Assembly: GCA_902595825.1 (NCBI GenBank)
Contig: CACJRP010000007.1
Span: 1 to 50,679 of the forward strand
DNA length: 50,679 bases
Reading direction: 5' to 3'
Source: an uncultured Bacteroidota bacterium
GTDB taxonomy: Bacteria > Bacteroidota > Bacteroidia > Flavobacteriales > Flavobacteriaceae
Part shown: positions 26,569 through 30,497 of the stretch, one piece after another
Layout of the letters: every line of letters begins with the position of its first letter
Numbering within the stretch: position 1 is the first letter of the stretch
Position numbers and translations under genes: made by a program
Notes under the pieces: model-generated
Databases searched by the model: none
The model's input: only the letters and a program-made list of their open reading frames with translations
Told to the model about the DNA's origin: nothing

Positions 26569-27270
26569 CTAAATAAAACCATCCAGTTTCTTTTTAAGTT
26601 TTTTTCCATAAAATGAACTTTTGATTTCTTTATTTAATTTAGAATACAGGCTATCTAAATATTTTTTTGATATATTATTTAATTCATAGAGCCCTATATA
26701 AGCAGATATTTCTTTATCTGAATTATTCATAGCAAAATTTAAAGAAAAAAGTACTTTTTTTCTTTTTATCAAATTATTCTTTTTTTCAAATATCTCATCC
26801 CTTTGTTTAGAATCAAATTCACCTTTTTTCTCTAAATAATCCTTCACTAATTCAATATTTTGATTGTTAAATTTCCTCATAATCATCAAATACTCGTCCC
26901 AGAGTATTTGGTTTTCTGACCCTTCAACTTTAGCACTGCTTAAAAATGTATTTAATCTTGTATTGATTTCAATTTTACCCTCTTCAGCAAAAAATGGAAT
27001 TTTTTGTAAAGTGGTATCAGTTTCATCTTTTTTTAATGTGAGAAAATAAAATTGTGCTTCACTCAAGCTATCATTAAATTCAAAAGTTTCAACACCTTCA
27101 ATTTTTAAAGAATCAATAATAATTAACGTTGTATCATTTATATACTTTTGCAAATACAATTTACCTTTTCTTAGCCCTTTTACGCTCCCAGAAATATTGA
27201 GATTTTTGTTTATATCATTGGTGCACTTAAAAAAAAGTAGGAGAAATAAATATTTGATGTATGGTTTCAT
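26569..27270 (-). CDS. DUF4369-type predicted lipoprotein
   Basis: Predicted envelope protein of 233 residues with no known function. After a hydrophobic leader (MKPYIKYLFLLLFF) comes KCTND, so Cys16 could be lipidated, though Lys at -1 is not a standard lipobox. The following part (ISGSVKGLRKGKLYLQKY, then DTTLIIIDSLKIEG and FNDSLSEAQFYFL) has the beta-rich character of DUF4369, the N-terminal domain found in many Bacteroidota thiol-disulfide proteins. Here no thioredoxin domain or CxxC follows. I chose ATG 27270, 2 nt after the stop of the upstream DUF5916 gene; a start at 27288 would overlap it. The pair is probably one operon. Confidence 0.7.
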   Translation of the reverse strand: MKPYIKYLFLLLFFKCTNDINKNLNISGSVKGLRKGKLYLQKYINDTTLIIIDSLKIEGVETFEFNDSLSEAQFYFLTLKKDETDTTLQKIPFFAEEGKIEINTRLNTFLSSAKVEGSENQILWDEYLMIMRKFNNQNIELVKDYLEKKGEFDSKQRDEIFEKKNNLIKRKKVLFSLNFAMNNSDKEISAYIGLYELNNISKKYLDSLYSKLNKEIKSSFYGKKLKKKLDGFI

Positions 27271-27272
27271 TA

Positions 27273-29477
27273 TTAGATATTTAACCAATAAGTTAGTTTA
27301 AAAGTTAGACTTCGCACCCTTGGAACTAAATTATTGTAAGTAAAATAATTATCATTGTAAACTAAGTAAAAATCTGAGAGGGGAGCGAAGCGCCATTGTA
27401 ACCTTGAATTTACACCTAAATTGTCAGATCTAGAACTGTATTGAATAAATGTATTCCAAAAAAGTTTCTTATTAAATGTATACTCAAATTTTGGTCCAAT
27501 CAAAAATAATTTTCCATACGTGTACTTTGAAGGGAAGTATATATCATCATATCTGATTTTTACGCTACTATTAAATTTAGGTTGTACTCTAATTGTAAAT
27601 TCAGAATTAAAAGAAACTCTATTTCCGGAATAAAATTCTCCGAGCGTAGATTGCAAATTGAAATAAAAGTTTTTTGAATAATTTGATGTAAACCTCATTT
27701 CAACATCATTATAATAAAATCCAATACTAGATGGAAGCGGTACACTATTATTACCCCCCACAGGGTTGAAATCATCTAAAAGGTAGGTATATCTACGATT
27801 ATATGATATTTCAAACCTGGATTGGTTTGTGAATGAAATTTCACTTTTGGTTTCATAATTTCTATCTGTTACAAGATTAAGCAAATCAGGTTTATTCACA
27901 AAATAAAGTTGCTGACTAAATTCAATAGATCTAATTTTTTTTGAATCGATCCATAGTCTGTGGCCATAATTAATGAAGTGGGACTTCACACCAGTTCTTT
28001 GGATAAAGCCTAAATCAGAACTAAAATTCTCGCTTTTTTGTCCTGTAAATAGTCTAAAATTATTTTTTCTTGAATTATAAGTTAGCCTAAAGCCGTTTGA
28101 AAAATTATTTTCATTATTGTTAGTTTCAAAAGATTTATGATACCAAAGTTTACCAACCCATTTGTTATCTTTAGATTGTAGGTTGTAGTCTAGACCTATG
28201 ACACGATTATAATCTTCTTGATCATTAGTAAATTCTTCTTCACCAATTTTCTCTCTGTTTACAAAAAATGCCCCTAAAAAAGATCTCGAAAACATTTTTT
28301 GTTGAAGCGCAATTACAGTGTTGTTGTTGGAAGAAATTTTATTTTTTGGGTCACTATCTGTAACCATATTTAAAACACCCAGTCTCAAATTTTTATTTAT
28401 TTTACCGCTAAGCCTTGCGCCAGCTATTATTCTGTTTTGTATTGTATTTCCATTTAAATCTCTAGCTACACCTATTCTCCTTGAAAAAAATGGTTGTGCA
28501 TTGTAGCTGCTTCCAAAACTCGAAAATAGATCACTATTTTGGAGAAAAAATTGTCTTTTCTCTGGAAGACGGACTTCAAATCTGCTTAGATTTATAATTT
28601 GATCATCCACTTCTACCTGTGAAAAGTCTGGATTGAGGGTCAAATCCAAAATCATGCCGCTCCCAATACTCAACTTAGTATCAACTCCGATATCGAAAAA
28701 GGAAACCAATTTACTTTCTTCAAAATTTTTCCCTTGTGTTCCGCTTGTATAGGGAATTAAAAAAACGGGTGACTTCGAATTTCCAAGTGGTTTTTCAAAA
28801 TAAAGGTCTCCCATAAAAGCTAATCCAGCTATACTTAAATTTCTAGGTATTCTTGCCCATGTGGATCTTGTATTTTTTCCAACATCAGTTTTATAAATAT
28901 TTATTCTCCATTTTTGAGATTTGTTGTCAAACCTTAAGCTAGCAAAGGGGATTTTAAATTCAGCTGTAAGGACATTTTTAGTTTTGTTTATTTCACCTTC
29001 CCATTTAACATCCCAAGAAAAAGTGTAGTCACCACCGCCACTACTGCTGCTACTCCTATTTCCGCCATTAGAAATTAAACCTTCTCTTCTAACTCCTTCA
29101 GCAGAAATACCAAAAAGAAAAGCATTTGTAGCGTCATTAAATGTATCAAGAACCAATGTCATAGAATCATTATTTCTAGAACTCCAGTCTCTTTTAAGAG
29201 ATGACACAACGTAATCTTCATCTTCAAAATTGGAAATTATAAGCATATACAAATTTTCATTATCGTATAAAACCTTAAATTTTGTCTGTTCTTTTGCTTT
29301 GATTGAGTCCAAAGGGAAATATTCCCAAAAATCAGAGTTAAAATCAGCTTTATCCCATACTGATTCATCAGCGATTCCATCAATTTTGATTTCGGAATCA
29401 ATAAATATTGCTTTAGCAGATTGTGTAAAAGCTAATCTAGATATTAAAATTAATAATAAAAGATAGGGTTTTTTAAT
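27273..29477 (-). CDS. DUF5916 outer membrane protein, probable AUU start
   Basis: The frame holds a CBM9-like N-terminal part (IDGIADESVWDKADF) and a long C-terminal region of alternating strands typical of DUF5916, a predicted outer membrane barrel family in Bacteroidota; the function is unknown. The first standard start in frame is TTG 29312, but the frame continues upstream with a clear signal peptide, KKPYLLLLILISRLAFTQS, and then the first CBM9 strand. No ATG, GTG or TTG lies between the upstream in-frame stop and this peptide. The best start is ATT at 29477 (734 residues), with ATA at 29486 as alternative. A perfect TATATTTG box at 29502-29495 puts transcription start just before these codons. 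TTG 29312 would remove the export signal. Confidence 0.8.
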   Translation of the reverse strand: MKKPYLLLLILISRLAFTQSAKAIFIDSEIKIDGIADESVWDKADFNSDFWEYFPLDSIKAKEQTKFKVLYDNENLYMLIISNFEDEDYVVSSLKRDWSSRNNDSMTLVLDTFNDATNAFLFGISAEGVRREGLISNGGNRSSSSSGGGDYTFSWDVKWEGEINKTKNVLTAEFKIPFASLRFDNKSQKWRINIYKTDVGKNTRSTWARIPRNLSIAGLAFMGDLYFEKPLGNSKSPVFLIPYTSGTQGKNFEESKLVSFFDIGVDTKLSIGSGMILDLTLNPDFSQVEVDDQIINLSRFEVRLPEKRQFFLQNSDLFSSFGSSYNAQPFFSRRIGVARDLNGNTIQNRIIAGARLSGKINKNLRLGVLNMVTDSDPKNKISSNNNTVIALQQKMFSRSFLGAFFVNREKIGEEEFTNDQEDYNRVIGLDYNLQSKDNKWVGKLWYHKSFETNNNENNFSNGFRLTYNSRKNNFRLFTGQKSENFSSDLGFIQRTGVKSHFINYGHRLWIDSKKIRSIEFSQQLYFVNKPDLLNLVTDRNYETKSEISFTNQSRFEISYNRRYTYLLDDFNPVGGNNSVPLPSSIGFYYNDVEMRFTSNYSKNFYFNLQSTLGEFYSGNRVSFNSEFTIRVQPKFNSSVKIRYDDIYFPSKYTYGKLFLIGPKFEYTFNKKLFWNTFIQYSSRSDNLGVNSRLQWRFAPLSDFYLVYNDNYFTYNNLVPRVRSLTFKLTYWLNI

Positions 29478-29494
29478 TTTTCTTATTTTGGTTG

Positions 29495-29502
29495 CAAATA
29501 TA
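29495..29502 (-). promoter_or_regulatory. Predicted -7 promoter element of the DUF5916-DUF4369 operon
   Basis: The minus strand reads TATATTTG, a full match to TAnnTTTG. Transcription would start near 29488, leaving about 11 nt before the ATT codon at 29477 and almost none before ATA 29486, which favours ATT. No TTG is found at the right distance upstream. Confidence 0.55.
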
Positions 29503-29576: not shown

Positions 29577-30497
29577 ATGAATCAAAAATATTTGAAAAAA
29601 TTAAAATCATTGAATAATAGAAATTTGATAATTATTTTAATGTTTATTTTTTTTATTTCATTTGGGATTTCAAAAACCAGATTTTTAACTAATGGTAATG
29701 AATCAAATTATCATATATATCCTGTTTCAATCCCAAAAAAAGTCTCTTTTGCTGGCGAGGAAATTATTCTAGATGAAGATGATTTGATTGAAAGAATGGA
29801 TAAAGAATTCCTAGTGAATACTTACTGGCAATCTAATACAATTCTACTGATTAAAAAGTCAAATAAATATTTTCCTCAAATTGAAAAAATACTAATTGAA
29901 GAAGGAGTTCCTACAGATTTTAAATATTTAGCATTAATTGAAAGTGGTTTGGATAATGTAACATCTCCAAGAGGTGCAAAAGGGTTTTGGCAAATAATGA
30001 AAACAACTGGAAAAGAGTATGGATTAGAGATAAATAGTAATGTTGATGAAAGATATAATTTGAATTTATCTACAAGATTAGCTTGTAAATATTTAAAGAA
30101 AGCTAAGGATAAGTTTGGCACTTGGACACTTGCAGCGGCAGCTTACAACAGAGGAATTAATGGAGTTCAAAATGAAATAACAAAACAAAATCAAACCAGA
30201 TACGGAAATATTTTGTTTGGAGAAGAAACTAAAAGATATGTCTTTAGAATTATAGCATTAAAAAATATCGTTGAATCTCCTGAAAGTTTTGGTTTTTTTA
30301 TTAAAGAAGAGCAAATGTATAAACCAACAAAATATGAGGAATTAAAAGTTGACATTCCTATATATAATATATCTGATTTTTCAAAAAAATTAGGTTTAAG
30401 TTATAAAAACTTTAAAATTCATAATCCATGGTTGTTAGAAAACCATTTGAATAATAAATCAAAAAAGGTTTACACGATTTTAATACCTAAAGAGTAG
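29577..30497 (+). CDS. Lytic transglycosylase, SLT domain (MltD-like)
   Basis: Peptidoglycan-cleaving enzyme of 306 residues. An N-terminal membrane segment or signal anchor (about 16-31) precedes a goose-type lysozyme-like SLT domain at about 95-220. The catalytic Glu is E122 in LALIESGLD. It is followed by SPRGAKGFWQIM, the DERYNLNLSTRLACKYL stretch and AAAYNRG. The C-terminal part (from about 245) looks like a degraded LysM-like region. It is divergent from the DUF5916 gene (about 100 bp between starts) and convergent with the TPR gene, with a single base between stops. No clear promoter was found. Confidence 0.9.
   Translation: MNQKYLKKLKSLNNRNLIIILMFIFFISFGISKTRFLTNGNESNYHIYPVSIPKKVSFAGEEIILDEDDLIERMDKEFLVNTYWQSNTILLIKKSNKYFPQIEKILIEEGVPTDFKYLALIESGLDNVTSPRGAKGFWQIMKTTGKEYGLEINSNVDERYNLNLSTRLACKYLKKAKDKFGTWTLAAAAYNRGINGVQNEITKQNQTRYGNILFGEETKRYVFRIIALKNIVESPESFGFFIKEEQMYKPTKYEELKVDIPIYNISDFSKKLGLSYKNFKIHNPWLLENHLNNKSKKVYTILIPKE

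Follow-up and report, generated by a model that had tools for sequence, protein, structure and literature searches.

The window examined here is a stretch of 50,679 nucleotides from an uncultured bacterium of the Flavobacteriaceae. Its minus strand carries a gene for a DUF5916 family protein, preceded by a promoter box and a short predicted leader (Table 1). Thirteen codons follow the upstream in-frame stop (ATA GCT AAT ATC CTT ATA TTT GCA ACC AAA ATA AGA AAA, the last ATA being at 29486), and after them come ATT (29477) AAA AAA CCC TAT and so on, encoding KKPYLLLLILISRLAFTQS. A preliminary description of the window had claimed that the signal peptide is unmistakable, that no ATG, GTG, or TTG separates it from the stop, and that the only standard start in frame, TTG 29312, would remove the export signal. 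A base-by-base check confirmed this: the signal peptide after ATT is clear, and no standard start precedes that TTG in the frame. It is also the start used by the ORF tool (listed ORF, 27273-29312). Thirteen successive codons that include no standard start can easily arise by chance. The weight of the argument lies with the conservation of the start among orthologues and with a control on 98 conserved ORFs.

The product had been described as a DUF5916 protein with a CBM9-like strand. The DUF5916 assignment held (94.4 bits, cut-off 22.6), but the CBM9-like Pfam match fell below its threshold (20.1 bits, cut-off 23.4). A structure prediction from seq­uences of seven proteins had a mean pLDDT of 34.7, too low for judging a beta-barrel fold or the outer-membrane location put forward in the preliminary description. 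No relatives were found among solved structures at an E value of 0.1, and no NCBIfam family was found for the protein. A literature search, mostly of journals open without subscription, found no paper on DUF5916.

Table 1. Features of the DUF5916 locus (positions are those of the window)
Feature	Positions	Strand	Basis
Upstream in-frame stop TAA	29517..29519	-	Base-by-base frame check
-7 promoter box TATATTTG (Bacteroidetes TANNTTTG type)	29495..29502	-	Identical in 6/6 orthologues of the genus
Predicted leader, 12-13 nt, A-rich, without GGAG core	29478..29490	-	Box spacing of 4-5 nt (PMC6847099, accessible part)
AUU, the likeliest DUF5916 start codon	29475..29477	-	ATT in 6/6 of the genus; ATT/ATC/ATA in 12/17 of a second genus
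Signal-peptide region (M)KKPYLLLLILISRLAFTQS	29418..29477	-	Translation; K/R at residue 2 and hydrophobic core in 18/18 relatives with AUU/AUC/AUA
TTG, first standard in-frame start, rejected	29310..29312	-	Use would delete the first 55 residues and with them the signal peptide
DUF5916 family protein, 734 aa, with signal peptide	27273..29477	-	Pfam PF19313, E = 9.3e-27; translation

An orthologue is present in six genomes of this genus, and a seventh (G003, 65% complete) showed a paralogue only. The five other orthologues come from separate assemblies and share 77 to 95% protein identity with ours. In the alignment, all six have ATT at the position matching 29477 and an open frame across the full match. 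The start ATT is invariant, and 43 of the 57 nucleotide columns of codons 4 to 22 vary. None of the six has ATG at that position, and none has an ATG in another frame between the promoter box and ATT. In five of the six, that interval has no ATG, GTG, or TTG in any frame. The exception, L003, has an in-frame ATG at -6 codons, which begins at the second base past the box and precedes the predicted transcript start. In L006, the box itself contains an in-frame TTG. The genus also has a paralogue group (~47%), in which an in-frame ATG (MILKN or MILNN) is found at all seven loci (L008 and L023 to L028). Therefore, a nonstandard start is not general to the DUF5916 genes of this genus.

The preliminary description had also pointed to a perfect promoter box ending at 29495, and the same box occurs in all six orthologues of the genus. 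The distance from box to ATT is 17, 17, 19, 17, 19, and 18 nt. Because these steps are not multiples of three, the leader is noncoding in this frame. In Flavobacterium johnsoniae, probable promoters are reported to have 4 to 5 nt between box and transcript start (accessible part of PMC6847099). This spacing puts the predicted +1 at 29490 or 29489. The message had previously been expected to begin near 29488, between the stop and the signal peptide. A scan for sigma-70-type promoters stayed at shuffle level (6 found; shuffle mean, 5.2), as expected because this phylum has another promoter type. In a minimum-energy fold, the predicted message was unpaired over its first 26 nt, although the fold as a whole was no different from shuffles (z = 0.04).

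We extended the comparison to a sample of 397 genomes of the family drawn from a larger group, taking homologues among the matches listed. Of the genomes searched, those of a second genus of the same family have the nearest orthologues; 18 of its 19 genomes matched, G420 only partly. Excluding the partial locus of G420 (L091), paralogues L092 and L093, and three further paralogues, there were 17 readable starts at 51 to 59% identity. The start place holds ATT, ATC, or ATA in 12 of these and TTG in the other five. For the two genera together, the counts are 18 of 23 with AUU/AUC/AUA and 5 of 23 with TTG; AUG is absent from the start in all 23. Isolated in-frame standard codons occur upstream in three of the 18 AUU/AUC/AUA rows: L003, L006, and L084, the last with an ATG at -21 codons. 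Seven of the 18 have an in-frame standard codon 7 to 15 codons downstream, within the signal peptide. Four rows that make up a four-genome subclade of the second genus (L076, L077, L079, and L081) have an out-of-frame TTG 5 to 8 nt upstream of ATT/ATA, which counts against AUU.

A tree of 53 proteins places all six rows of this genus in one clade (100/99) with eight rows from the second genus; the clade has 11 ATT, 2 ATC, and 1 ATA. Its sister branch has nine rows, five with TTG and four with ATT. Next outward is an ATG branch, made up of the paralogues and L068, and then come rows with TTG or GTG. Of the 14 clade rows, 13 have a TANNTTTG box, and in 12 of these it precedes the start codon by 11 to 23 nt. 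It lies 46 nt away in L082, and L043 has a near match only. In L078, L079, and L080, the box includes G at positions that are almost never G in F. johnsoniae boxes. None of the 23 rows of the two genera has a GGAG core, the one Shine-Dalgarno core searched for, within 25 nt upstream of the start.

For homologues from other genera (L007, L009, L045 to L069, L094 to L153, and L218 to L273, excluding L100, which is represented by L273, L138, which has Ns at the start, and L261, at a contig end), we looked for standard codons in a region from 25 codons before to 4 codons after the expected start place. This 30-codon region shows the presence of a codon and not its use as a start. Among the matches listed, all 140 have a standard codon there: 104 have ATG and 36 have only GTG or TTG. 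Therefore, weak starts are common in the DUF5916 family. The start of one of these homologues, L146, is uncertain: the region includes a TTG, but GTC ATT AAA lies closer to the signal peptide. By the same test, 15 of the 23 rows of the two genera have no standard codon; the other eight are the five TTG starters and the three rows with an isolated upstream codon.

As a control, 105 kb of this genome (the window and 55 kb around infC) was compared with syntenic stretches of relatives. We found 133 conserved ORFs and dropped 35 in which a longer ORF covers more than half, leaving 98. In only two of these, the DUF5916 gene and infC, does the first standard start lie over 50 codons inside the conserved protein (68 and 55 codons, respectively); the next-highest value is 24. 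The infC start is AUA at all six loci of the genus, where the codons read GTC or ATC, ATA, GCA (GGA in L075), ATA or ATT, and CGA. No ATG, GTG, or TTG lies between the upstream stop and the IF3_N domain match at any of the six. The same was true of all 50 infC loci taken from the infC rows among L070 to L075 and L154 to L200: 20 from the second genus, 27 from other genera of the family and order, and 3 from this genus. Five of 38 matched genomes had no locus and were left out (G022, G028, G029, G035, and G039). By eye, the 50 starts are 45 ATA, 3 ATC, and 2 CTG. Therefore, nonstandard starts are an established habit of infC here, one that the DUF5916 gene has in common with it.

Could the true start be another nonstandard codon slightly upstream, at 29486 or near the box, with ATT an ordinary isoleucine codon? 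ATA or ATC does lie 9 nt upstream of ATT in four of the six genus members (one ATA and three ATC). Furthermore, ATT, ATC, and ATA all encode isoleucine, and substitutions among them would by themselves also be compatible with an internal codon. However, that place holds CTG in L003 and TCA in L005, because of 1- to 2-nt indels. The leader changes length in steps that would break a reading frame, and a start there would sit only 3 to 4 nt from the predicted 5' end. We consider this improbable, in agreement with the earlier choice of ATT over ATA 29486. Even less probable is initiation at TTG 29312, which would mean that the protein is not exported or that the gene has decayed. The matching codon is also the first standard one in L002, but L003 and L004 have theirs at other places. 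Also against this start, the frame stays open over the full match in every genus member, and in all 18 relatives with AUU/AUC/AUA the upstream segment retains a hydrophobic core and has K or R at residue 2. The least credible alternative is that an ATG is masked by a frameshift or by an error in sequencing or assembly. This assembly is incomplete (67% completeness), but the same ATT is present in six assemblies together with the same TATATTTG box, so ATT is not a base error. The 12 ATT/ATC/ATA starts of the second genus and the lack of an out-of-frame ATG between box and ATT also argue against an error.

The AUU at 29477 is thus very probably the true, weak start of the DUF5916 gene, with a promoter box upstream and presumably a low yield of exported protein. 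In these aligned sequences, the position and codon are conserved, no standard start is shared, the leader is noncoding, and the nonstandard starts cluster on the tree; conservation of the promoter box holds for the genus. The main points against the AUU reading are the ATA or ATC 9 nt upstream in four genus members, the isolated standard codons of 3 of the 18 rows, and the weaker box matches of some second-genus rows; the in-frame codons within the signal peptide and the unremarkable RNA fold also count against it. Having a conserved AUU/AUC/AUA and no shared standard start, the gene would belong with the known AUU/AUC/AUA-start genes. Transcription would begin 12 to 13 nt upstream of AUU, from the conserved box, and the start would follow a short, A-rich leader that has no Shine-Dalgarno sequence. 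Initiator tRNA would read AUU as fMet through a third-base mismatch, at low efficiency, and little of the predicted exported protein would be made. IF3 is reported to act against noncanonical initiation complexes (accessible part of PMC8266586). By analogy with infC, use of the DUF5916 AUU may follow the IF3 level.

Why the start has stayed weak is a separate question within the AUU reading. Weak initiation might simply have been tolerated, and AUU reached by drift without selection or IF3 control. The many homologues elsewhere with only GTG or TTG and the few third-base changes of the start codon on the tree fit this, and we give it somewhat less than an even chance. What stands against drift is that none of the 23 rows has AUG, although bacterial GUG and UUG starts are reported to give way to AUG more often than AUG gives way to another codon (PMC5622118, a study that left AUU out of most of its analyses). 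This suggests that selection keeps the DUF5916 start weak.

Starts of this kind are known from other genes. In Escherichia coli, a host that uses Shine-Dalgarno pairing, infC reportedly starts at AUU and is under autocontrol, and translation of pcnB is said to be limited by its AUU start. The DUF5916 gene resembles infC, including the AUA-starting infC of its own genus, in the class of its start codon. However, its protein is predicted to be exported, it has its own promoter box, and it cannot autoregulate. It resembles pcnB as a non-infC gene with AUU, but the two differ in function and pcnB belongs to a Shine-Dalgarno-using host. In Listeria monocytogenes, infC (ATT) and rnhC (ATC) are reported to have starts fixed across the species (accessible part of PMC13068326); these are starts of the same class, but in unrelated proteins and an unrelated lineage. 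Staphylococcus aureus starts infC at AUA and has two conserved starts outside infC, cvfC1 (AUU) and ccpN (AUA), both with extended Shine-Dalgarno motifs, according to the accessible part of PMC13009471. There, noncanonical starts gave ~10% of AUG output in poor medium; in rich medium, ccpN AUA rose to as much as 30%, and cvfC1 AUU did not rise. The likeness to cvfC1 and ccpN is a conserved AUU or AUA outside infC. However, the DUF5916 leaders, with no GGAG in any of the 23 rows, do not belong to the extended Shine-Dalgarno class.

The kind of start is known from infC, pcnB, and S. aureus cvfC1, and what would be new here is its occurrence without a Shine-Dalgarno sequence. F. johnsoniae is reported to lack Shine-Dalgarno sequences and to tune initiation by low structure and upstream bases, such as A at -3 (PMC6847099, whose accessible part does not mention infC, AUU, or AUA). 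In Bacteroidia, ribosomes are reported to keep the anti-Shine-Dalgarno sequence sequestered (accessible part of PMC9976891). Our search, again mostly of journals open without subscription, found no paper on "non-AUG start codon" with AUU in Bacteroidetes. Reported AUU/AUC/AUA starts outside infC are apparently few, and the S. aureus cases rely on extended Shine-Dalgarno pairing. If the DUF5916 start is real, its conservation over two genera of bacteria that ignore Shine-Dalgarno sequences would show that starts of this class can function and be retained unaided, and this one is a direct test case for what keeps start codons weak. We tentatively propose, as a rather doubtful extension, that a lineage without Shine-Dalgarno use keeps the AUU/AUC/AUA class for infC and this protein, that a short A-rich leader replaces the Shine-Dalgarno sequence, and that the IF3 level, and with it growth state, might set the dose of a surface protein. 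There is also a practical side: a gene caller restricted to ATG, GTG, and TTG trims 55 residues and with them the signal peptide, as the ORF tool did here.

Two neighboring genes were also noted. Downstream, a DUF4369 gene (window positions 26569-27288) has a listed TTG start that lies within the last bases of the DUF5916 gene. If it used instead an ATG 18 nt further on, it would begin 2 nt past the DUF5916 stop, so the two genes may be cotranscribed. On the opposite strand, starting 100 bp from the DUF5916 gene, is a transglycosylase gene (29577-30497) with an SLT domain and weak similarity to murein transglycosylase D. The intergenic region therefore serves two divergent genes.
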